The notes: generated by a model from the letters alone, not told the origin. Positions 1,831 through 47,534 are shown, counted from the stretch's first letter. The stretch is DNA of 64,000 nt from Deltaproteobacteria bacterium (GCA_006226595.1 SBGP01000111.1:1-64000), one strand, 5' to 3'. Numbers and translations are program-made.

Positions 1831-3981
1831 TCACAGCTGCGAGCGTGCGGCCTCGAGGACCTGCTTCACGTCGGATTCCAGGTCGCCTGCCTTGCCCACC
1901 ACCAGCTCGCACAGGCTGATCGCGAGCTCGGGCCGTTCGCCGTTGTAGGCGTCGACCGCCACGGAATAGGCCGCATACACGCCGGCGACGTCGCCCTCGA
2001 GCAGATCGTAGGCCCGACGCGCCGCCCCGGCTCGGGTCTCGAGATCCCCCTCACGCTCGGCCACCGCGGCGTACAGCTGACCCGAGACCTTGTGCAGGCC
2101 GAGCTGCTCGGTGGCGGTGAGTGCCTTTCGCAGCGCCTCGTCCACGTCCCCGAAGGCGAGCTCATCCGCCGCCAGGGCCTTCGCGGCCAGGGCTCGCGCC
2201 TCGAGCTCCGGATCCTCGACGAGTACGGCCTCCTGCGCGACCTCGGAGTAGAGGGTCATCCGTGTCTCGGGCTTGCCGGTGTGACCGCCGTTGAACGTGG
2301 CCCATGCACGGGCGGCTCTCGCCTGGCGCGCGTAGGCCTTCTCGCCGAGCGCCTCGAAGGACTCGAAGGCCTCGTGGAACAGCGGCTGCGCCGTCGCGAA
2401 CTTCTTGCCCTCGAAGGCCTTCAGGCCCCGCGCGTAGGCATCCTTCGCGGACTCGAAGCGCTCGAGACGGGCGACGCTGTCTCCGAGGCCGTGCTCGGCG
2501 GCGGCCTTCGCGGCCTCGCTGTTCTGTCCCATCGACACAAGCACCTGCGCCGCGTTCTCGCGCGCGAGCGCCTGCAGCGCCTCTGCGCGCGCCCCGCCAG
2601 CCGCCTTGGCCGCGTCCGCCGCCTCGATGAAGGCCTGAAGTGCATCCGCGCCCTGCTTGGCTCGCGCCAGCCCCACACCCTCGGCCATCGCGACGTGAAC
2701 GGGGCCGAGTGAATCGCCGGCGCGCATGAAGGCATCGAGCGCTTCCTTGCGCGTCTTGGGGAGCTTCTTGGACGCCATCTGCGCCTGGAGCTCGACCCGC
2801 AACACCGCGACGCGCGCCGCATCGGCATGCCAGTCCTTGAGCTCGAGCGCCGCCTGGGCCCGAGACAGTGCCACTTCGGCACCGTGGGTATCGCCCGCGC
2901 GGGCGAGCACCGCGCCTTCCAGCTCGTCGATCCGTGGCTCCGCAGTCGGATCCTCGACCTCCTTGGCCGCCTTGCGGGCGCGCTCCAGCTGCCCCCGCGC
3001 CGACTCGAGATCCTCGAGAGCCAGGGCGACACGGCCCGCCTCGACCCGGTAAGCGACCTCGTTCAGCCGAAAGCTGCTTCCCGCGACCATCGACACGGCC
3101 TCGGCGAGCGGCTCCCGAGCCAGCGCCGGGCGTCCGCCGACCCGGAACACGCCGCCCATCTCGGCGAGTAGTGCGGCGCTCTCGCGCGACAGCCCGCCCT
3201 CTCGCGCCAGGGTCAAGGCACTCTGGAGCGTGAGCGCGGCCTCGTCGAAGCGCCCCTCGGCCCGAAGGATGGCGCCCTCGGCGAGCGCGCGACGCACCCG
3301 TGCCCTGCGGTCCTGCTCTGCGGCAGTCGGCAGGCTCTCCCGGGCCGCACCGGTCTGGCCCTTTCGCAGCGCCTCGCTGACCTTGGCGAGCGCGTCCCCT
3401 CGCCCGCCGCCACCGCGCGCGGCCTCGAGCACGGCCCGGTTCTCGGCTACCCGCTCGCTCAGCTCGTCGTCTCCGGCGGCCTTGGCCCGCGACGCCGCCT
3501 CGTCGAGCGCGGTCTCGGCATCGCCGAAGGCACCGAGATCCATGTGTACGAGCGCCGTGTTCAGCGAGATACGCGCCCCGAGCACGTCGTCGTCTCCGCG
3601 CAGGGACTCGGCCTTGCGCAGCACGCGGAGCGCCTCGTCCCCCTTGCCCTTGTCGGCGAGCACCAGGCCCTGGAGCGTGAGCAGCGGCGCGTGATTCGCC
3701 GCCCGTTCCAGGCCTGTGTCCACCGCCTGCGACGCCTGTCGCAGATCGCCGGCCTCGTACGCCGCCACCGCATGCAGATAGGCGTAGTCCGCCGAGTCCG
3801 AGGCCCCGGAGAGGGCCGCGAAGCCCGCAGCCGCCTCGTCGAAGCGACGCCCCGAGAGTGCAGCGAGTGCTGCCTCCACTGCCGGTGCCGCGTCGTCGGA
3901 AATCTCGATCTCGGCGCGGGTCGCCGGGAGGACCAGCGGTTCGGCAGCGGGAGCGAGCAACGCGAGAAGCAGCAGGAACAC
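1831..3981 (-). CDS. Secreted TPR-repeat protein
   Basis: A 716-residue protein starting at GTG 3981 with GGAGG four bases upstream. Residues 1-13 (FLLLLALLAPAAEP) form a short signal peptide, so the protein is probably periplasmic. Almost all the rest is Ala/Leu/Glu-rich helical hairpins with the TPR spacing, for example AAAGFAALSGASDSADYAYL, GDEALRVLRKAESL, ARGQLERARKAAKE and FATAQPLFHEAFESFEALG. At least ten such hairpins can be seen between residues 35 and 710. TPR arrays bind other proteins; no enzymatic motif is visible, so the partner is unknown. The start lies 141 bp from the divergent CoA-transferase gene, and that gap should hold promoters for both genes. The next gene downstream (723-1790) follows closely. 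Confidence 0.85.
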   Translation of the reverse strand: MFLLLLALLAPAAEPLVLPATRAEIEISDDAAPAVEAALAALSGRRFDEAAAGFAALSGASDSADYAYLHAVAAYEAGDLRQASQAVDTGLERAANHAPLLTLQGLVLADKGKGDEALRVLRKAESLRGDDDVLGARISLNTALVHMDLGAFGDAETALDEAASRAKAAGDDELSERVAENRAVLEAARGGGGRGDALAKVSEALRKGQTGAARESLPTAAEQDRRARVRRALAEGAILRAEGRFDEAALTLQSALTLAREGGLSRESAALLAEMGGVFRVGGRPALAREPLAEAVSMVAGSSFRLNEVAYRVEAGRVALALEDLESARGQLERARKAAKEVEDPTAEPRIDELEGAVLARAGDTHGAEVALSRAQAALELKDWHADAARVAVLRVELQAQMASKKLPKTRKEALDAFMRAGDSLGPVHVAMAEGVGLARAKQGADALQAFIEAADAAKAAGGARAEALQALARENAAQVLVSMGQNSEAAKAAAEHGLGDSVARLERFESAKDAYARGLKAFEGKKFATAQPLFHEAFESFEALGEKAYARQARAARAWATFNGGHTGKPETRMTLYSEVAQEAVLVEDPELEARALAAKALAADELAFGDVDEALRKALTATEQLGLHKVSGQLYAAVAEREGDLETRAGAARRAYDLLEGDVAGVYAAYSVAVDAYNGERPELAISLCELVVGKAGDLESDVKQVLEAARSQL

Positions 3982-11905: not shown

Positions 11906-13260
<1,355 letters not shown>

Positions 13261-37763: not shown

Positions 37764-38435
37764 CTACTCCGCCCAGCTCGGCGGGCCGTCGGCAATGGTC
37801 ACAGCCTGCCCGAGCCCGAGCACCTGCTCGTCGATCAACGCCTCGAGCACGTCGGCGGCAAGGTGCACGCAGCCCCCCGAGTTCGAGGCGCCGAGGTCCT
37901 CCTCGGGCGTCGGCGTACCGTGCAGCGCGATCGAGAACCAGCGCGCGGTTCCCCGATAGCGGCTCATCTTCGGGCCCGTGACCGCGGTCTCCGAGTGCAG
38001 CCCGACGTAGCCGCCGCCGTACGCGCGATCCGCCGCGCCATCGCCATCGAAGTCGAGCTCGGACATGGCCCGCCACAGCCGCTCCAGGCCTGCCGAGCTC
38101 GCGAGGAGCTCGACGTATTCGGGCTCCTGGGCGAACCGGGCGCAAACCGACGGGTCGACCGCGTTGTGCGTACCGACCTCGTGAAGGACGAGATCGACGA
38201 CGAACGCGCCGGTCGGCGTGACGTAGTCCGCCATCGCCTGCTTCTCGACGAGTCCTCCCCGTCCGATGCCCACCGGCGCCGTGGTCACGCTTCCGTCCGT
38301 CCGCCGCACCGACAGCGTGTGTCCCGCGCGATCGACGTGGACCGCGACCGTCGCGAACCGAGGTTCGCTGTGCACCGCCTGGGGGACGAGCGGAGCGGGC
38401 TCCGGCGTCGCACACGCCAGCAGCCACAGGATCAC
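37764..38435 (-). CDS. L,D-transpeptidase-like lipoprotein
   Basis: A 223-residue protein from GTG 38435, overlapping the upstream stop (GTGA). MILWLLAC is a very short lipoprotein signal with Cys8 in the lipobox. Residues ~35-215 form a YkuD-type domain: [43 protein letters not shown] and the active-site box SNSGGCVHL, where Cys and the preceding His are the expected catalytic pair. Such enzymes cross-link peptidoglycan or attach proteins to it from the periplasm. The overlap with the hydrolase-OsmC gene indicates one transcript, although the functions are not obviously linked. Confidence 0.88.
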
Positions 38436-39637
38436 GGGTTCTCCGCGAGCGACGTGTGTACCTCGAGGGGGCCATGGAGCGTGCGGTGGACCGGGCAGCG
38501 ATCGGCGATCTCGAGCAACCGCTGCCGTTGCTCCCTATCGAGCGCCTCCCCGCGAATGTGGACGACCCGGTGCAGCACCTGAAGCGGCCCCTCGCCCCCC
38601 GACGCGCGCTGGCGGCGCTCGTGAGACAGCTCGACCCGCACGCCCTCGAGCGGCCACTGCTTGCGGTCCGCATACATGCGCAGCGTCATGGCGGTGCACG
38701 CTCCGAGCGACGAGAGCAGCAGGTCGTAGGGCGTGGGTCCGAGATCCGCGCCCCCGACGTCCGGCGGCTCGTCCGCGAGCAGGTGATGCGGCCCTGCCGT
38801 GATCCGCGAGGTGTAGTGCGACCGGTCGATGGTCACCTCGACGAGGCCGCGGTCGGTGACCGCCTCTGGAGGCGGCTCGGACAGCGCGTAGCGCTCCGCC
38901 CAGGAAGCCACGACCTGGCCAACGTACCGGGCGTCCGCGGCGTCGGTGAGCAGGTGGTCCGCGCCGTCGAGCGAGATGAAGCTCTTCGGATGCCGCGCCG
39001 CCGCGAACAAGCTCGAGGCATGGTCCACCGAGACCACGGTGTCCTGGGGTGAGTGAAGGAACAGCAGCGAGCGGCCGCGCAAAGCCGGAACGACCTCGCG
39101 GAGCAGCCGCTGGCTACGAAGGTCCTCGACCAACTCCTGCTTCACACGGAACCGCCGACCCGCGAGCTCCGCGACGGCCTCGCCCTCGCGTGCGAGGTCC
39201 TCCTCGACCTCCGCGAACAGCCGTGCCGCGTGCGCAGGCTCGCTGGGTGCCGCGATGGCGGCGATGGCGCGAATCGACGGCCTCTCGACTGCTGCGGCCA
39301 GCGCCGCGGAACCCCCGAGCGAGTGCCCGACGAGCAAGGTGGGCTCCCCCGCCTCGGCCGCGAGCCAGTCGATCGCCGCGACCAGATCGCCCACGTTCGA
39401 GGTGAACGTGGTGTCGGCGAACTCGCCCTCGGACTGGCCCAGACCGGTGAAGTCGAAGCGCAGCACCCCGACACCCGCCGCGGCGAGGGCCTCGGCAATG
39501 TGGCGAGCGGCAAGCAGGTCCTTGCCGCAGGTGAAGCAGTGCGCGAACACCGCCCATCCACGCGGGTGCACCGGCCGATGCAGCCGCCCGACCAGGATCT
39601 CGCCCTGGGCTCCGGTGAACGTCACGCGCTGAGACAT
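38432..39637 (-). CDS. Bifunctional alpha/beta hydrolase - OsmC domain protein
   Basis: A 401-residue fusion. Residues 1-250 are an alpha/beta hydrolase with [14 protein letters not shown] (oxyanion region), [14 protein letters not shown] (nucleophile Ser), [16 protein letters not shown] (Asp region) and GADHLL (His). Residues ~270-395 are an OsmC domain: [39 protein letters not shown] with the peroxidatic Cys, and [13 protein letters not shown] with the resolving Cys. OsmC proteins reduce organic hydroperoxides using these two Cys. The fusion is known in other bacteria, where the hydrolase is thought to act on the lipid or ester partner. The ATG at 39637 has a nearby GGAGGAA. It is upstream of the L,D-transpeptidase (GTGA overlap). 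Confidence 0.94.
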
Positions 39638-40352: not shown

Positions 40353-41789
40353 TTGTCTGCAGTTCCCCACCTCGACCACTTCGAGCGCTTCGGCGTCACC
40401 GAGAACGAGTGGCGTCGCGTGCTCGCCGAGGCCACCGCCCTCGGCGCCGATGATGCCGACCTCTACTTCGAGCACACGACCGCCACCGCGGTCGCGCTCT
40501 CCGATCGCATCGTGAACTCGGCACACACCTCGGTGGACGTGGGCGTCGGCGTGCGCGTCGTCGTCGGCGACCAGGTCGGGTACGCCTACACCGAGGAGCT
40601 CACGCTGCCCGCCATGCTCGAGGCCGCGCGCATTGCCCGCGAGATTGCTCGCTCGGGCCAGGCCTCGCCGCTCCAGGTCGTCGGCCTCCAGGCGCGCGCC
40701 GGCTCCGACTTCTACCCGGTGAACCGCCGCTGGGCCGAGGTCGATGTCAGCGAGCGCATCCCGCTCATCCGGGCATGGGAAGAGGCCGCCTTCGCCGCGG
40801 ACCCCCGCATCGAGAAGGTCCAGGCGAACCTGTCGGACGCCGACAAGTACGTGGTCATCGTCCGCGCCGACGGCAAGGTGGTCGCCGACTACCGCCCAAT
40901 GACCCGCGGCGGCGTGTCCTGTGTGCTCGAGGACGGCGGTCGCCGCGAGGCCGGCGGCTACGGCGTGGCCGCCCGCAACGACCTCTCCTGGTACACGCCC
41001 GAGCGCCAGGAGCGGCTGGTCCGCGAGGCGGTGAAGCGCGCCTCCGACGCACTGCTCTCAGTGCCCGCCCCCGCCGGCGAGATGCCGGTGGTCATGGCGG
41101 CCGGCTCGAGCGGCATCCTGCTCCACGAGGCCATCGGCCACGGCATGGAGGCGGACTTCAACCGCAAGGGCATCAGCATCTTCGCGGACCGCATCGACAC
41201 CCGGATCGCTCCGAACGAGGTCACCATCGTCGACGACGGCACCCTGCCCGGCGCCCGTGGCGCGGTGAACGTCGATGACGAAGGCAGCGAGACCGAGAAG
41301 ACCGTGCTCGTCGAGAACGGCACGCTGCGCACCTTCCTCCACGACCGGATCTCCGCGCGCCACTACGGCGTCAACCCGACCGGCAGCGGTCGCCGCGAGA
41401 GCTTCCGCCACCCGGTCCTGCCCCGTATGCGGTGCACCTACATGGAGAACGGCCCGCACGACCCGTCCGAGATCATCAAGAGCGTCGACAAGGGCATCTA
41501 CTGCGAGAGCTTCCAGAATGGGCAGGTGGCCATCGGCGCCGGCGACTTCGCGTTCTACGTGCGCCAGGGCTACCTCATCGAGAACGGCAAGCTCACCCAA
41601 CCGGTGAAGGACGTGAACCTCATCGGCAACGGTCCCGAGGTGCTCGCCGCGATCGAGATGGTCGGCAACGACCTCGCCATCGACGAAGGCGGCTGGACCT
41701 GCGGCAAGGACGGCCAGTCGGTGCCGGTCAGCCAGGGCATGCCCACCGTGAAGGTCGGCAAGCTCTCCGTGGGCGGAGGTGCGCGATGA
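40353..41789 (+). CDS. tldD: TldD family metalloprotease subunit
   Basis: A 478-residue zinc peptidase subunit starting at TTG 40353 with GGAG upstream. It has the zinc site HEAIGH (258-263, the HExxxH signature of TldD) and the C-terminal GWTCGKDGQSVPVSQGMPTV, whose Cys is the expected third ligand. Other family stretches are PRMRCTYMENG and GIYCESFQNGQVAIGAGDFA. TldD and TldE form a heterodimer that degrades unfolded peptides; in other bacteria it processes modified peptides such as microcin B17. The stop overlaps the pmbA start (ATGA). It is the first gene of eight that run to 47534 with overlaps or gaps of 7 bp at most, which places the peptidase in one transcript with polyamine genes. 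Confidence 0.95.
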   Translation: MSAVPHLDHFERFGVTENEWRRVLAEATALGADDADLYFEHTTATAVALSDRIVNSAHTSVDVGVGVRVVVGDQVGYAYTEELTLPAMLEAARIAREIARSGQASPLQVVGLQARAGSDFYPVNRRWAEVDVSERIPLIRAWEEAAFAADPRIEKVQANLSDADKYVVIVRADGKVVADYRPMTRGGVSCVLEDGGRREAGGYGVAARNDLSWYTPERQERLVREAVKRASDALLSVPAPAGEMPVVMAAGSSGILLHEAIGHGMEADFNRKGISIFADRIDTRIAPNEVTIVDDGTLPGARGAVNVDDEGSETEKTVLVENGTLRTFLHDRISARHYGVNPTGSGRRESFRHPVLPRMRCTYMENGPHDPSEIIKSVDKGIYCESFQNGQVAIGAGDFAFYVRQGYLIENGKLTQPVKDVNLIGNGPEVLAAIEMVGNDLAIDEGGWTCGKDGQSVPVSQGMPTVKVGKLSVGGGAR

Positions 41790-43114
41790 CCCCCGAAGCC
41801 CTCCTCGATCTCGCGACCCGCGTCGAGACCAAGGCCCGCGAGCTTGGCGCCTCGGAGGCCGGCGTCGCCGTGTCCACGGGCACGCACACCACCCTGCAGC
41901 GACGCGAGGGCAAGGTCGAGCGCGCCACCTCGGCGACCACCCGGGGCCTCGGCGTCAGCCTGCTCGTCGATGGCCGCTACTCGAGCCACAACACCTCCGA
42001 CCTGCGCCCCGAAGCCCTCGACCGCTTCCTCGAGCAGGCGGTGGCCGCCACGCGCTTCCTCGAGCCCGACCCCTACCGTGGGCAGGCCGAGGGCGAACGG
42101 TGCGGTCGCGCCGCCAGCGAGGACGAGCTCGACCTCTACGATCCGCACCTCGAGGCCATCACCGCCGAGGAGCGCGCTCAGATCGCCGAAGAGATCGAGA
42201 CCCACGTCAACGGCCTGGGCCGCGACGATGTCGCGAGTGCGTCGGTGTACGTCGCCGACGGCTCCGGGACCACGGCGCGAGTGATGAGCAACGGCTTCGC
42301 CGAGGTGACGCGGGGCGGCTGGTTCGCCCGCGGCGGAGACATCACGGCCACCGAGCCAGGCGGCAAGCGCCCCGAGGCAGCGGCCTACTACTCCGCGCGC
42401 CACGCGAGCGATCTGCCCGACAACGCCTTCATTGCCCACGAGATCGGCAAGCGCCTGCAGAGTCGCCTGGGCAGCAAGAGCATCGAGTCGGGCGCCTACC
42501 CCATGCTCCTCGCCAACCGCGCCACAGGTCGCATCCTCGGCGTGCTCGGCGGTCCGCTCTCTGGCGGAGCGCTGCACCAGAAGCGCAGCTGCCTGCTCGA
42601 CAAGCTCGGCGAGTCCATCGCGTCGAACAAGCTCACGCTGCTCGACGACCCGCTCCGTCCACGGGGCCTGTCCTCGCGCCCCTTCGACGGCGACGGCATG
42701 TTCGCGCGTCCGCGCACCATCATCGACCGCGGCGTGCTGCAGCAGTACTACATCGGCGTGTACCACGGCCGAAAGCTCGGTACCGACCCGACCACGGGTG
42801 GTCGCAGCAACTGGGTGGTGCCCGCGGGTGAGCGCAGCCCCGAAGAGATCGCGAAGGCCTTCCCGAAGGCCATCTGGGTCGACGGCTTCATGGGTGGCAA
42901 CAGCAACCCGGTCACCGGCGACTTCTCCTTCGGCATCCGCGGCATGCTGCTCGAGCACGGCGAGCCGGTTCAGAGCCTCTCCGAGATGAACGTGAGCGGC
43001 AACCTGCTCGGCATCCTCGGCAGGCTGACCGAGGTCGCCAACGATCCGTGGACCTACTCGTCGCTCGTCACGCCGACCCTGGTGTTCGACGACGTGCAGT
43101 TCTCCGGACTGTGA
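41786..43114 (+). CDS. pmbA: PmbA/TldE family peptidase partner subunit
   Basis: A 442-residue TldE-type protein with an ATG overlapping the TldD stop (ATGA). It has the family fold but lacks the HExxxH zinc site, which is normal for TldE, the subunit that shapes the peptide tunnel. Recognisable stretches are LQRREGKVERATSATTRGLG (residues ~33-55), RPFDGDGMFARPRTIIDRGV, GGNSNPVTGDFSFGIRGMLL and EMNVSGNLLGILGRLTEVAN near the C-terminus. Adjacent coupled tldD and pmbA genes are usual. What is unusual is the direct overlap of its stop with the speD start (GTGA at 43111), tying the peptidase pair to the polyamine genes. Confidence 0.94.
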   Translation: MTPEALLDLATRVETKARELGASEAGVAVSTGTHTTLQRREGKVERATSATTRGLGVSLLVDGRYSSHNTSDLRPEALDRFLEQAVAATRFLEPDPYRGQAEGERCGRAASEDELDLYDPHLEAITAEERAQIAEEIETHVNGLGRDDVASASVYVADGSGTTARVMSNGFAEVTRGGWFARGGDITATEPGGKRPEAAAYYSARHASDLPDNAFIAHEIGKRLQSRLGSKSIESGAYPMLLANRATGRILGVLGGPLSGGALHQKRSCLLDKLGESIASNKLTLLDDPLRPRGLSSRPFDGDGMFARPRTIIDRGVLQQYYIGVYHGRKLGTDPTTGGRSNWVVPAGERSPEEIAKAFPKAIWVDGFMGGNSNPVTGDFSFGIRGMLLEHGEPVQSLSEMNVSGNLLGILGRLTEVANDPWTYSSLVTPTLVFDDVQFSGL

Positions 43115-43455
43115 GCAAGCCGCTCGGCTGGCACTGGATGGCGCAGATCGCTGACGCTCCGCGCGGTGTTCTCGCCGATCCAGCCGCGCTGCGCGACGTT
43201 CTCGCCGCCGTGGTCGACGCCCTCGGCCTTCGCGCGGTGAGCGCCCCCACCGCCGTGCCCACCGCGAGCGGTGTGGCCGCGGTCGTCCTGCTCGCCGAGA
43301 GTCACCTCGCCGTACACACGCTTGCGGCCGAAGGCCGGGCGCTGGTCGACCTGTTCTCGTGCACTCCCGTCGATGCCGCCCTTGCCCGGCGGACCTTCGC
43401 GCGGCTGCTCGGGACCGACGCGATCCGCGATGAGCTGGTGGAGCGGCTTCCGTGA
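43111..43455 (+). CDS. speD: S-adenosylmethionine decarboxylase proenzyme (SpeD)
   Basis: A 114-residue pyruvoyl enzyme starting at a GTG overlapping the pmbA stop. It decarboxylates S-adenosylmethionine to give the aminopropyl donor for spermidine. The processing site is intact: LLAESHLAVHT places Glu63-Ser64 as the self-cleavage point, His69 and Cys84 (in VDLFSC) at the spacing known for the Thermotoga maritima enzyme (Ser63, His68, Cys83). Length is typical for the short bacterial class. Relatives with this motif have also been shown to act on other amino acids, so the substrate should not be taken as certain. It overlaps the next gene (GTGA), which is a degenerate copy of itself. Confidence 0.88.
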   Translation: MSKPLGWHWMAQIADAPRGVLADPAALRDVLAAVVDALGLRAVSAPTAVPTASGVAAVVLLAESHLAVHTLAAEGRALVDLFSCTPVDAALARRTFARLLGTDAIRDELVERLP

Positions 43456-43745
43456 CCCGCCTGCTCATCCGACTTCCGCGCGATCCTCGCGCTCTGGTCG
43501 ATGCGCTCGTACCGCTCGGCGAAGAGGTCGCGCACCGCTTCGAGCCCCACGGGCTGTCCCTCGTACGCATCGGCTCTCGAGGCAGCGCGGCGCTGCACAC
43601 CTGGCCCGAGCACGACCGGGCCACCCTCGACTGCTACGGTACGGCCGCAGATGGCCTGGAAGAACGGCTCACCGACCTCGGTGTGACCGTGCTTCGCCGG
43701 CTCACTCCCCTCACGGAGGACGCGTGGAACTCTTCAACGAGCTGA
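43452..43745 (+). CDS. Second SpeD-like protein, catalytically degenerate
   Basis: A 97-residue protein from a GTG overlapping the speD stop (GTGA). It follows the SpeD pattern from SLVRIGSRGSAALHTWPEHD through ATLDCYG, which corresponds to the SESH-TIHTWPE and VDVFTCG motifs of SpeD. The conserved HTWPE (His49) is kept, but the cleavage pair Glu-Ser is Arg43-Gly44 and the catalytic Cys position is Thr64. It therefore cannot form the pyruvoyl group. An inactive partner that binds and controls SpeD, like the trypanosomal prozyme, is the natural guess; other explanations are a scaffold role or decay. The C-terminus overlaps the next gene by 22 bp. Confidence 0.7.
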   Translation: MTRLLIRLPRDPRALVDALVPLGEEVAHRFEPHGLSLVRIGSRGSAALHTWPEHDRATLDCYGTAADGLEERLTDLGVTVLRRLTPLTEDAWNSSTS

Positions 43746-43945
43746 AGCCCGACGTGCTCATCGCGAGCATCGTCTACACCCTGCTCGGTCTCGCCCTGTT
43801 CGGCGGCAGCCTGTGGATCATCACCAAGGTCGCCCCCTTCTCGGTCCGCAAGGAGATCGAGGAGGACCAGAACACCGCGCTGGGGGTGATGATCGGCTGC
43901 ATGTTCCTCGGCATCGCGATCATCGTCGCTGCCGCCATCCACTAG
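43724..43945 (+). CDS. DUF350-like membrane protein (single half)
   Basis: A 73-residue protein from GTG 43724 with GGAGG four bases upstream, which lies inside the end of the previous gene. Two membrane helices (~11-34, LIASIVYTLLGLALFGGSLWII; ~50-72, ALGVMIGCMFLGIAIIVAAA) surround the conserved FSVRKEIEEDQNTALGV loop, which matches the DUF350 (YjfL) signature. Most DUF350 proteins are about 130 residues with two such halves, so this one has a single copy and may dimerise. DUF350 genes are known to sit beside polyamine synthesis, PspA-like and DUF4178 genes, as here. Its function is not known. Confidence 0.85.
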   Translation: MELFNELKPDVLIASIVYTLLGLALFGGSLWIITKVAPFSVRKEIEEDQNTALGVMIGCMFLGIAIIVAAAIH

Positions 43946-43952
43946 GACGCGT

Positions 43953-45818
43953 GTGGAGCTGAGCTGCCCGAGCTGCGGCGCGGTCACCGCGCTGCGCAAT
44001 CCCGGTATCGCCGTCGTGGTGTGCGAGTCCTGCCACACGACCCTGTACCGGGAGGCCGACGTGCTTCGTCAGGGGGCGGAGTCGATCCTCGGCGAGCCCC
44101 GCTCGGCGCTGGCCACCGGCAAGTCCGGGCGCCTCGGCGACCGGGAAGTGCACCTGGTCGGGCGACTGCGTTTCGACCATGGCCGCGGCTATTGGGACGA
44201 GTGGTTCATCGAGGACGAACGCGGTGGGTTTGGCTGGCTCGTCGAGGACGAGAAGTCCTACACGCTCGAGGCCCGGACCCCGACCGCGCCGGAGCTGTCC
44301 CCGGAGGCCCCGGTCGGCACGGTGGTGTCGCACGGCGGTGCTGAATGGGAGGTCCGCGAGACCGGCGTCGCGCGGCTGGTCGGTCTGGAAGGTCAGCTCG
44401 ACCGCAGCCTCGTCCCCGACACGATGTACCGCTACTCGGACCTCGGCGAGGTGGGCGGCGAGCGCCAGCTGCTCGTCGAGTTCGACGACGAGGACCGGCC
44501 GACGGCCTTCCTCGGACGCAGCGTGCCCACCGCCCTCGTCCAGTTCACGGGCCCGGCCCCCGCCCCCACCGAGGCGCGCGAGGCCGAGACGATTCGCTGC
44601 GCCAGTTGCGGCGCTCCCTTCGAGCTCCCGGCGACCCCCGACCCGGTGGAGACGGCCGCCTGCCCGTTCTGCGACGCCCTGCTCGAGCTCGACCATGCCC
44701 AGAGCCTCGTCGTCGGCAAGCGCCGCGACCGCGCACCGGGCTTCACCCTCGAGCTCGGCGATGCGGCCGAGCTGTTCGGCCATCGCTGGGAAGTCTGCGG
44801 GCGCATCCAGTACACCGAGGGGCGCTGGGCCAGCCACGAGTACCTGCTGTTCCACCCGACAGCCGGCTATCTCTGGCTGGAGCACGACGACGGCCACTGG
44901 CTGTTCTCGCGACGTGCACCCACCGGGCCGGCGCTACGAGCGCTGGCGGGCAACTACTGGGGCGACGAGGTCGACTGCGGCGAGAAGGTCTACAAGCTCG
45001 CCTCCCACGGCAGTGGCTACGTGGACTACGTCGACGGCGCGTTCCCCTGGCGGGTGCGGCTCCAGGACGCGCACGAGTACTGGCTTCTCGTCCGTCCCCC
45101 GTACACGTTCACGGTCGAGAAGAGCGGCACGGACGACGGCGGCGAGATCGAGCACTTCGAGGGGAGCTGGCTCGAGACCGGCGAGCTCATGGCCAAGTTC
45201 GGCAAGTCGCCCGAGTGGACCGTCGAGCGCCACCCGGCGATGCCGAACCCGTACGCCCCGTGGCTCGGTACCGCCGTGATCGCGGCACTGCTCGTCGTCA
45301 TCAACCTCGTCGCGGCCCTGGGCACCGCGGTGTCCGGGCAAGAGATCGCCTCGTTTCACGTGCTGTCCAACGAGACCGATGCCTCGAGCCCCATCTTCCG
45401 CATCGAGCCGGGCACCCGCACGCTCGGCGTGACCTTCGAAGCGCCGGTCGACAACTCCTGGGTCTACCTGGACGCCGAGCTCGTCGACGCCGAGGAGGAG
45501 GAGGTCGAGGCCGCCTTTGGCGAAGAGGTCGGCTACTACCACGGTGTCGAGGGCGGCGAGAGCTGGTCCGAGGGCTCGCGAAGCTCGCATCGCGTGTTCC
45601 GCGCCGTCGAACCGGGCGCCTACCGCCTGTTCATCTCCGCCGAGGACGACCGCCCGGTCCGCACCCACGTGACCATCCGGGTCAATGACCAGCTGGCGCG
45701 CTACAACCTCGCTCTAGTCGTGCTCTTCGCGATCGTCGCCGCGTACGTGTTCGTGCGCTACTTCGTGTTCGAGCGCGAGCGCTACGGCGAGACCTTCGAG
45801 ATCGAGTGGGACGACTGA
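43953..45818 (+). CDS. Double zinc-ribbon / DUF4178 membrane protein
   Basis: A 621-residue protein from GTG 43953. It begins with a zinc ribbon (Cys5, Cys8, Cys24, Cys27: SCPSCGA and CESC), followed by a DUF4178 domain (~55-195, VHLVGRLRFDHGRGYWDEWF and GFGWLVEDEKSYTLEAR). A second zinc ribbon (CASCGAPFEL and CPFC, ~216-240) and a second DUF4178 domain (~250-380, GRIQYTEGRWASHEYLLFHP and GYLWLEHDDGHWLFS) follow. A membrane helix (~435-458), an extracytoplasmic part and a second helix (~583-605) end the protein. This order shows internal duplication. DUF4178 proteins recur with DUF350, SpeD and aminopropyltransferase genes. The stop overlaps the small peptide gene (TGATG). Confidence 0.88.
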   Translation: MELSCPSCGAVTALRNPGIAVVVCESCHTTLYREADVLRQGAESILGEPRSALATGKSGRLGDREVHLVGRLRFDHGRGYWDEWFIEDERGGFGWLVEDEKSYTLEARTPTAPELSPEAPVGTVVSHGGAEWEVRETGVARLVGLEGQLDRSLVPDTMYRYSDLGEVGGERQLLVEFDDEDRPTAFLGRSVPTALVQFTGPAPAPTEAREAETIRCASCGAPFELPATPDPVETAACPFCDALLELDHAQSLVVGKRRDRAPGFTLELGDAAELFGHRWEVCGRIQYTEGRWASHEYLLFHPTAGYLWLEHDDGHWLFSRRAPTGPALRALAGNYWGDEVDCGEKVYKLASHGSGYVDYVDGAFPWRVRLQDAHEYWLLVRPPYTFTVEKSGTDDGGEIEHFEGSWLETGELMAKFGKSPEWTVERHPAMPNPYAPWLGTAVIAALLVVINLVAALGTAVSGQEIASFHVLSNETDASSPIFRIEPGTRTLGVTFEAPVDNSWVYLDAELVDAEEEEVEAAFGEEVGYYHGVEGGESWSEGSRSSHRVFRAVEPGAYRLFISAEDDRPVRTHVTIRVNDQLARYNLALVVLFAIVAAYVFVRYFVFERERYGETFEIEWDD

Positions 45819-45988
45819 TGACCTTGCGCACCGCCATCTTCGGCTTGCTGTTCACGGCGCTCACCGCCGGGGCCACGTGGGCCGGGACCTCGGGCTTCGG
45901 CGCCGACGGGAGCCTGCACCAGCAGCAGGGCCTGCGCCATGCGGGTGGCCGCGTGTACGTCGGTGGCGGGCTGCGCGGTGGCAAGTAG
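45818..45988 (+). CDS. Small secreted Gly-rich peptide of the polyamine operon
   Basis: A 56-residue peptide whose ATG overlaps the stop of the DUF4178 gene (TGATG). Residues 1-22 (TLRTAIFGLLFTALTAGATW then Ala) form a clear signal peptide with a plausible cleavage after Ala22. The 34-residue mature part contains 12 Gly, a run of three Gln (QQQ), two basic turns and the end VGGGLRGGK; its only Lys is the last residue. I find no known family. Its stop lies inside the next gene, overlapping it by 11 bp, so it cannot be removed from the operon structure easily. A substrate for polyamine attachment or for the TldD/TldE peptidase is my speculation. Confidence 0.7.
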   Translation: MTLRTAIFGLLFTALTAGATWAGTSGFGADGSLHQQQGLRHAGGRVYVGGGLRGGK

Positions 45989-47534
45989 CCCTCCCCGCTC
46001 CCCTGCGGGCTCGCGCGAGGCCGTGCTCCTCGCCAGCGTGTTCGCGGTGGCAGTCGCGGGCCTGATCTACGAGCTGGTCGCCGGCACCTTGTCGACCTAC
46101 CTGCTCGGCGGCTCGGTGGTCGTGTTCTCGCTGGTCATCGGCGTGTTCCTGTTCGCGATGGGCATGGGAGCATTCGCCGCTCAGTGGCTGCACTCCGAGC
46201 TCGAGCGCCGCTTCGTCGAGGCGGAGCTACTCCTCGGGGTCGTCGGTGGGTCCAGTGCCCTCGGCCTGTTCTGGGCCTTCGGGGCGCTCGGCGAGGGCTA
46301 CACGATTGCGCTGGGCCTCACCTGTCTGGTGGTCGGCGCCCTGGTTGGGGTCGAGATCCCGCTGCTCTTGCGCATCCTCGAGCGGCGGGTCGAGGTGCGG
46401 CTCGCCGTGAGCCAGGTCCTCGCGCTGGACTACGCGGGGGCCCTGGCCGGGTCCATCCTGTTCCCGCTGGTGCTCCTGCCGTGGCTCGGTGCCGTGCGCG
46501 CCGCCGCGCTCGTGGGCCTGCTCAATGTCGGGGTCGCCGGTCTGGGCATCGCGTGGCTCGGCGACCACATCCGCGGTCGCAACCGACTGGCCGTCGCGTC
46601 CGTCGTCGCGGCTCTCGGACTCTCCGGCGTCCTGCTCACCGGTGCCCGCACCACCACGTGGATCGAGGACCAGCTGTACCAGGACTCGGTCGTGCACGCC
46701 GAGAGCACCCGCTACCAGCGCATCGTCGTTACCCGCTGGCGCGAGGACCTCCGCCTGTACCTCGACGGCCACCTGCAGTTCTCGTCGGTCGATGAATACC
46801 GCTACCACGAGTCCCTGGTGCACCCCGCGATGCAGGCCGCAGGCTCAGCCAGGCGAGTGCTCATCCTCGGCGGCGGGGACGGCATGGCCGCCCGCGAAGT
46901 GCTCAAGCACCCCGAGGTCCGCCAGATCGACCTCGTCGATCTCGACCCGGTCCTCACCGAGCTGTTCCGCGAGCAGCCCGAGCTCGCCGCCCTCTCCGGC
47001 CACGCGCTCTCCGATCCGCGCGTGACCGTGCACAACGACGACGCCCTTCGCTTCCTCGAGGATGCCGAGGCTCGCTGGGACGTGGTGATCATGGACCTGC
47101 CCGACCCGAACGACTCCGGGCTCTCACGGCTGTACAGCGAGGCCGCGTTCCGGCTCGCGGGCCGCCGACTCACCGACCAGGGGGCGCTGGTCACCCAGGC
47201 AACCAGCCCGTTCTATGCACCCGAGGCCTTCTGGTGCATCGCGCGCACCGCCGAGGCCGCGCTGTCCGAGGGACCGCAGCCGCGCACCATTCGCCCGTAC
47301 CACGTGCACGTGCCGAGCTTCGGCGAGTGGGGCTTCGTGCTCGCCAGCCACGGAGAGGTGTCGCCAGAGGCCCTCGTGCCCGAGGTGCCGACCCGCTTCC
47401 TCGACGAGTCCGCCGTCCAGGCGATGGTCCGCTTTCCCGCCGACCTCGGCCCACGCGACGTCGTGATCAACCGCCTCGAGGACGCGGCCCTCGCCCGCTA
47501 CTACGCGCAAGGCTGGCGGCACTACCGCCAGTAG
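45978..47534 (+). CDS. speE: Membrane-anchored polyamine aminopropyltransferase
   Basis: A 518-residue protein, start taken as GTG 45978 (11-bp overlap with the peptide gene; a GTG at 46023 is an alternative). The N-terminal half (~15-225) has seven or so membrane helices, for example AVLLASVFAVAVAGLIYELV. The C-terminal half is a spermidine synthase fold: LYLDGHLQFSSVDEYRYHES, LVHPAM, the SAM-binding LILGGGDGMAAREVL (~296-308), VDLDPVLTELF and the catalytic-loop MDLPDPNDSG. It moves the aminopropyl group from decarboxylated SAM to a diamine, here probably at the membrane. It follows SpeD, DUF350 and DUF4178 genes. Its stop is 3 bp from the convergent gene at 47538. Confidence 0.88.
   Translation: MASSPPRSPAGSREAVLLASVFAVAVAGLIYELVAGTLSTYLLGGSVVVFSLVIGVFLFAMGMGAFAAQWLHSELERRFVEAELLLGVVGGSSALGLFWAFGALGEGYTIALGLTCLVVGALVGVEIPLLLRILERRVEVRLAVSQVLALDYAGALAGSILFPLVLLPWLGAVRAAALVGLLNVGVAGLGIAWLGDHIRGRNRLAVASVVAALGLSGVLLTGARTTTWIEDQLYQDSVVHAESTRYQRIVVTRWREDLRLYLDGHLQFSSVDEYRYHESLVHPAMQAAGSARRVLILGGGDGMAAREVLKHPEVRQIDLVDLDPVLTELFREQPELAALSGHALSDPRVTVHNDDALRFLEDAEARWDVVIMDLPDPNDSGLSRLYSEAAFRLAGRRLTDQGALVTQATSPFYAPEAFWCIARTAEAALSEGPQPRTIRPYHVHVPSFGEWGFVLASHGEVSPEALVPEVPTRFLDESAVQAMVRFPADLGPRDVVINRLEDAALARYYAQGWRHYRQ

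Follow-up and report, generated by a model that had tools for sequence, protein, structure and literature searches.

At this locus, a gene for a small exported peptide sits inside a tight run that includes polyamine genes. The run comprises eight genes of the window, the 64,000-nucleotide stretch of a Deltaproteobacteria bacterium genome analyzed here (GCA_006226595.1, SBGP01000111.1:1-64000), in which two S-adenosylmethionine (SAM, AdoMet) decarboxylase-family genes (speD1, speD2), genes for DUF350 and DUF4178 proteins and a gene for a membrane-bound aminopropyltransferase (SpeE) accompany one for a peptide of 56 amino acids (aa). The lysine-tailed peptide of this module is what is new here; the C-terminal lysine may have been noticed earlier by others. 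Based on sequence analysis, which supports a conserved gene set, a C-terminal lysine that is invariant in almost all complete copies, the active-site residues of SpeE and a charge bias in its loops, the genes from speD1 to speE are given a probability of roughly 0.5 of forming a peptide-aminopropylation system whose chemistry we infer. The eight genes lie in the order given by the initial annotation, all on the plus strand, as confirmed by open reading frame (ORF) coordinates and by Pfam and NCBIfam matches supporting every name but that of the peptide:

40353-41789, plus strand: tldD, TTG start; metallopeptidase subunit with HEAIGH motif (Pfam PmbA_TldD, 1e-66)
41786-43114, plus strand: pmbA/tldE, partner of tldD (Pfam TldD/PmbA domain, 2e-56)
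43111-43455, plus strand: speD1, AdoMet decarboxylase (AdoMet_dc, 2.4e-16) with intact ESH pyruvoyl-serine motif, His and Cys
43452-43745, plus strand: speD2, degenerate SpeD paralogue (AdoMet_dc, 1.9e-9) without the pyruvoyl serine
43724-43945, plus strand: DUF350 gene, 73-aa membrane protein with two transmembrane (TM) segments (PF03994, 3e-13) and a conserved PFSxRKEIEEDQN loop
43953-45818, plus strand: DUF4178 protein gene (PF13785 in two stretches, 2e-26), two CxxC zinc ribbons
45818-45988, plus strand: peptide gene, 56-aa exported microprotein and proposed acceptor, with hydrophobic N-terminus and Gly-rich tail ...VYVGGGLRGGK
about 45978-47534, plus strand: membrane speE, product with seven predicted TM segments followed by an aminopropyltransferase domain at the C-terminus (PRK03612, 614 bits, above cut-off)

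The tight packing reported for the run holds, with overlaps of 1-4 base pairs (bp) and a single 7-bp gap; larger overlaps of 22 bp and 11 bp occur between speD2 and the DUF350 gene and between the peptide gene and speE, the latter with a GTG start of speE. A terminator scan found one site, in speE, against 1.9 expected by chance, in agreement with the claim that no internal terminator interrupts the run.

The 56-aa ORF is a real gene rather than a chance reading frame, because relatives at the matching position in two genomes of the same family (G003 and G013) share its C-terminus, with tails of ...TIIGGGLHGGK and ...VYVGGGLRSGK, respectively. No family in Pfam or NCBIfam covers the peptide, and its Bacillota versions match DUF4247 below the cut-off only. 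In four further family relatives (L184, L189, L201 and L207), the peptide follows DUF4178 and no speE is found within the fetched stretch.

To what extent the peptide belongs to a conserved module was examined in 80 loci from GTDB species genomes, obtained by querying with speE proteins from three genomes of the family; because selection relied on resemblance to this SpeE type, the first sample is enriched for the module. With genes assigned by home-made profiles, speD, DUF4178, DUF350 and speE occurred together in most loci of this SpeE-centred sample, DUF350 adjoined speE in most loci, and a short ORF with a hydrophobic N-terminus lay between DUF4178 and DUF350/speE in nearly every locus. 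The module was found in Myxococcota, Acidobacteriota, Planctomycetota, Elusimicrobiota, Bacillota, Bacteroidota, Chlorobiota, Pseudomonadota, Bdellovibrionota, Campylobacterota, Lentisphaerota and Gastranaerophilales, and DUF4178 was present in 114/379 Myxococcota genomes. As for the gene order proposed for conservation, the part comprising speD, DUF4178, the small ORF, DUF350 and speE recurs in a dozen phyla, but tldD/pmbA never adjoins it there. One record titled Comamonas sp. KCTC 72670 (L043) has a SpeE and module that group inside Myxococcaceae; this genome is probably mislabelled or contaminated.

The recurring neighbourhood of DUF350, DUF4178, SpeD and spermidine synthase-like genes invoked by the initial annotation is thus real, and its core, without SpeD, had already been described. 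Ravi et al. (2024) reported a PspA-CesT/Tir operon group with a TM-fused spermidine synthase, DUF350, DUF4178 and a 'novel lipoprotein (Ctha_1186 domain)' (PMC11237479). The window operon shares the membrane-fused SpeE, DUF350, DUF4178 and a small exported protein, which in that group is probably the peptide described here, whereas it lacks PspA and CesT and adds SpeD; a Pfam search of the eight genes gave no PspA match. The main text of PMC11237479 mentions neither a C-terminal lysine nor an outside catalytic domain, and a full-text search, with sparse coverage of the subscription literature, returned no further paper on DUF4178.

The lysine ending was assessed by a blind choice of ORFs, which considered the position downstream of DUF4178, the hydrophobicity of the N-terminus and a limited overlap with adjacent genes while ignoring the last residue. 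Candidates were obtained in 60 of the 70 loci having an upstream DUF4178 gene, and every one of these loci (60/60) included a Lys-ended candidate; loci with a single candidate were Lys-ended in 52/52 cases, and 61/69 of all candidates ended in this residue. The ten loci without a blind candidate each proved on inspection by eye to have a lysine-ended protein, namely six short peptides below the hydrophobicity threshold and four tails borne by the DUF4178 protein. Control proteins from the same loci ended in lysine in only 4/200 cases (SpeE 2/82, SpeD 0/45, DUF350 2/73). In a held-out set of forty further DUF4178 loci from Myxococcota, the blind candidates again ended in lysine (30/30), five more tails were carried by DUF4178 (...SGSGVYSGGK), two were found by inspection and one locus lay at a contig end, giving a lysine tail in 37/39 evaluable loci. 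The suggestion that a small exported peptide is the likely modified partner therefore gains support from a lysine ending conserved across phyla.

The scaffolds that carry the lysine are unrelated and range from 43 to 280 aa, and the DUF4178 protein bears the tail as a fusion in nine loci (L037, L073, L088, L094 and L194-L198). Among 72 tails collected for composition as lysine-ended, the penultimate residue was Gly in 56 and His in 16 with nothing else found, position -6 was Gly in 52, and the last lysine was the sole one within the final 25 residues in 38, arginines being common. Tails ending in HK are confined to one branch of the SpeE tree (1 change against a shuffled-label mean of 14.8, in a quick tree), which spans Bacteroidota, Chlorobiota, Pseudomonadota, Bdellovibrionota and Myxococcota. 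In addition, the peptides carry a net charge of +1.4 ahead of the hydrophobic segment and of -0.1 behind it, with N-terminal exceeding C-terminal charge in 55/68 peptides and the reverse in 5/68; this bias predicts an N-terminus inside and a tail outside the membrane.

SpeE itself has the fold and the SAM- and amine-site residues of its family (Q, DE, YHE, GGGDG, D, DA, DxxD). Q267, D272, E273, Y276, H277, E278, D323, D355, D373 and D376 are identical in 82/82 homologues and D301 is kept in 81/82, the AlphaFold model has a predicted local distance difference test (pLDDT) score of 94.5, and the C-terminal domain matches solved aminopropyltransferase structures in Foldseek. The loops around the seven hydrophobic segments alternate strictly in positive charge, with 3.1/0.15/2.7/0.27/3.5/0/3.4 Lys plus Arg per sequence over the 82 homologues. 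By the positive-inside rule, this pattern predicts that the N-terminus lies inside and that the catalytic domain lies outside the membrane, on the same side as the peptide tail.

Aligned with solved SpeD structures and relatives, SpeD1 retains ESH, His and Cys, the motif of class 1b AdoMet decarboxylases. The second speD-like gene does belong to the SpeD family, but its catalytic serine is gone, ESH being replaced by RGS with G at the serine position. SpeD2 is probably inactive because the pyruvoyl serine is missing, a loss seen likewise in the SpeD2 copies of G013 and G005. The degenerate copy follows an intact SpeD in the window and in G013, while the G005 locus shows the degenerate copy alone. 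Degenerate paralogues lie at the following positions:

43452-43745 of the window: speD2
about 12600-12881 of locus L013: degenerate SpeD paralogue
2894-3187 of locus L014: degenerate SpeD paralogue

The AdoMet decarboxylase of trypanosomes has a prozyme arrangement, which the degenerate-after-intact order in the window and G013 resembles, and SpeD2 is a candidate non-catalytic partner of SpeD1. The only SpeD matches in the genome of the window are speD1 and speD2. Elsewhere in this genome (L208, contig C1), speA adjoins a SpeY-like gene of the deoxyhypusine synthase family; this relative resembles the homospermidine-forming SpeY and scores below the equivalog cut-off. Such a pair suggests that homospermidine can be made without the SpeD/SpeE operon, which then need not be the source of bulk triamine. 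A bifunctional-looking fusion of aspartate kinase and diaminopimelate decarboxylase is found in the same genome (L209, contig C117).

In the AlphaFold model of the DUF4178 protein (pLDDT 89.8), zinc ribbons and beta domains are followed by a first TM helix, then a beta-sandwich and finally another TM helix; the protein contains two DUF4178 domains, and the cysteines of its two CxxC ribbons are invariant. A function could not be read from the fold, since the domain that separates the TM helices gave only a weak GOLD-like match in Foldseek.

The role of tldD and pmbA in the system, proposed by the initial annotation, failed on comparison with other genomes. Both products carry PmbA_TldD domains and TldD has the HExxxH zinc motif as HEAIGH, which makes the pair a clear member of the TldD/TldE (PmbA) family. 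However, its linkage to the module is confined to this genome. pmbA is well matched in 21/21 genomes of the family with tldD adjoining wherever the contig allows, whereas tldD/pmbA followed by speD and DUF350 occurs only in the genome of the window. The same-genus genome G014 has tldD and pmbA at 83% and 76% identity and lacks the DUF4178 gene; neither TldD nor PmbA was found near the module at 82 other SpeE loci or at the 40 held-out DUF4178 loci. Additional TldD/PmbA-type genes are located elsewhere in the genome of the window. The eight-gene run thus joins two things, a local TldD/PmbA pair and the conserved module from speD1 to speE, and since each occurs elsewhere without the other, peptide trimming by TldD/TldE is at most a local add-on.

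For the module, the following path of peptide aminopropylation is proposed. SpeD1, perhaps with the inactive SpeD2, would make decarboxylated SAM in the cytosol, and this donor would cross the membrane, perhaps via the membrane domain of SpeE with DUF350. SpeE would then put one or more aminopropyl groups on the side-chain amine of the C-terminal lysine, while the DUF4178 protein may act as a scaffold or present the substrate. The polyamine modification suggested by the initial annotation would thereby be narrowed to aminopropyl transfer onto this lysine. This would yield a peptide with a polyamine tip, membrane-anchored or secreted, that may bind anionic envelope polymers or membranes; TldD/PmbA stands outside this path. 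The lysine is the candidate acceptor because its side chain resembles the end of a diamine substrate, it is the sole invariant feature of the partner, it is predicted on the same membrane side as the catalytic domain, and a donor-making enzyme is encoded in the operon.

Three precedents render this aminopropylation plausible. Silaffin lysines of diatoms bear aminopropyl units, for which a bacterial-type SpeD and an aminopropyltransferase have been proposed as enzymes (PMC3820600); the likeness is in peptide lysines with aminopropyl-built chains, whereas silaffin lysines are internal and lie in eukaryotic silica vesicles, and the enzymes are not established. Escherichia coli YgiC/YjfC join spermidine to peptides according to the title of a 2023 paper as cited in PMC12270671, and they are named peptide-spermidine ligases in RefSeq. 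Their clusters, yjfIJKLM-yjfC and ygiB-ygiC (DUF1190 protein and ATP-grasp ligase), likewise pair a polyamine enzyme with an exported protein whose C-terminus is Gly-rich, and yjf includes a DUF350 protein; in contrast, they use an ATP-grasp ligase in place of SpeD/SpeE, and their partner proteins end in GG rather than lysine. A Pfam search of the eight window genes gave no GspS-like ATP-grasp ligase. The third precedent is the membrane microprotein DltX, whose extracellular C-terminal motif holds an invariant residue and which in other systems is joined to a larger membrane protein (DltX/PatA, PMC12148441), an arrangement paralleled here by the fusions with the DUF4178 protein. Unlike the lysine-tailed peptide, DltX carries an acyl group on Tyr in an MBOAT/SGNH system without polyamine enzymes; the window peptide, with its GGK tail and invariant Lys, lacks the FxYxxF motif with invariant Tyr.

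Several points weigh against aminopropylation of the peptide. The topology of SpeE rests on charge bias, and an outside catalytic domain would require exported decarboxylated SAM, for which the transporter is purely hypothetical. A plain polyamine synthase would be expected to conserve the catalytic residues just as well. That the tail type appears to travel with SpeE is expected of an enzyme and its substrate and equally of a co-inherited operon, which explains the match to the tree without contact between the two. Two held-out DUF4178 loci (L192 and L193) have no detectable lysine-tailed ORF nearby. A Shine-Dalgarno-like motif occupies the last codons of 28/72 tails, and the choice of GGK codons may in part serve the gene that follows. 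Moreover, solitary membrane SpeE proteins close to the module SpeE occur in Archangium-type genomes (L034, L041 and L075), without DUF4178, DUF350 or a lysine-tailed peptide nearby.

The alternative that survives best, although we consider it unlikely, is plain polyamine synthesis, in which SpeE makes spermidine or a relative from free diamine at the membrane, to be used or sent across the envelope, with the peptide serving as a structural or regulatory subunit. Equally unlikely is the attendant role for the peptide, whose C-terminus would dock into a SpeE/DUF350/DUF4178 complex or sense polyamine. The catalytic residues of SpeE match those of ordinary aminopropyltransferases, SpeD1 is intact, agmatine or putrescine may be available given the presence of SpeA, and the active site could be gated by a terminal lysine that imitates a diamine. 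Nevertheless, free spermidine production needs no exported peptide, a SpeY-like route exists in the genome, and plain synthesis by itself leaves unexplained why the last residue is invariant across unrelated scaffolds, DUF4178 fusions among them.

A DltX-like carrier, whose C-terminal motif takes a group from one enzyme and passes it to another envelope acceptor, would fit a membrane microprotein with an invariant residue at its extracellular C-terminus and fusions in relatives. It is nonetheless quite improbable, as an aminopropyl group on a lysine amine offers no reactive leaving group and a second transferase is not conserved in the module. Little credence can be given, either, to attachment of the C-terminal lysine to peptidoglycan or another envelope polymer with the polyamine enzymes acting elsewhere. 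Braun's lipoprotein likewise ends in a lysine that is attached via its side chain, and an L,D-transpeptidase-family gene lies near the operon:

37764-38435, minus strand: gene of the L,D-transpeptidase (YkuD) family, located upstream of the operon and oppositely oriented
38432-39637, minus strand: alpha/beta-hydrolase fused to an OsmC domain

The link to the L,D-transpeptidase was rejected, as the YkuD motif was absent in 119/119 related loci searched. Further points against are the occurrence of the module in Bacillota, the lack of any cysteine, and hence of a Braun-type lipobox cysteine, in the window peptide, and the strict linkage to speE, which would be left unexplained. That the lysine is a DNA-level by-product, with GGA-GGA-AAR plus stop doubling as the ribosome-binding site of the next gene, is barely credible: GGA is indeed favoured at the last two glycines (30/56 and 28/40) and the codon bias is real, yet the 44/72 tails without the motif still end in Lys, including HK tails and the GGT-GGC-AAG of the window, and the lysine always directly precedes the stop, DUF4178 fusions included. 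An identity as a defence system was also rejected, the sole PADLOC match being a weak one of the methyltransferase-like domain of SpeE to mad2.

Returning to peptide aminopropylation, its broader form is more tentative: a widespread post-translational modification, in which an extracytoplasmic aminopropyltransferase may build a polyamine on the C-terminal lysine of anchored microproteins, with the same complex exporting decarboxylated SAM. One invariant residue of an overlooked microprotein makes the role of the SpeD/SpeE/DUF350/DUF4178 neighbourhood answerable by mass spectrometry. If the proposal is true, bacteria would possess a protein modification parallel to hypusine and to the lysine polyamines of silaffins, and decarboxylated SAM would be present outside the membrane. 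It would also account for SpeD genes that seemingly do not serve bulk spermidine, and membrane SpeE genes should then not be annotated as spermidine synthase by default.

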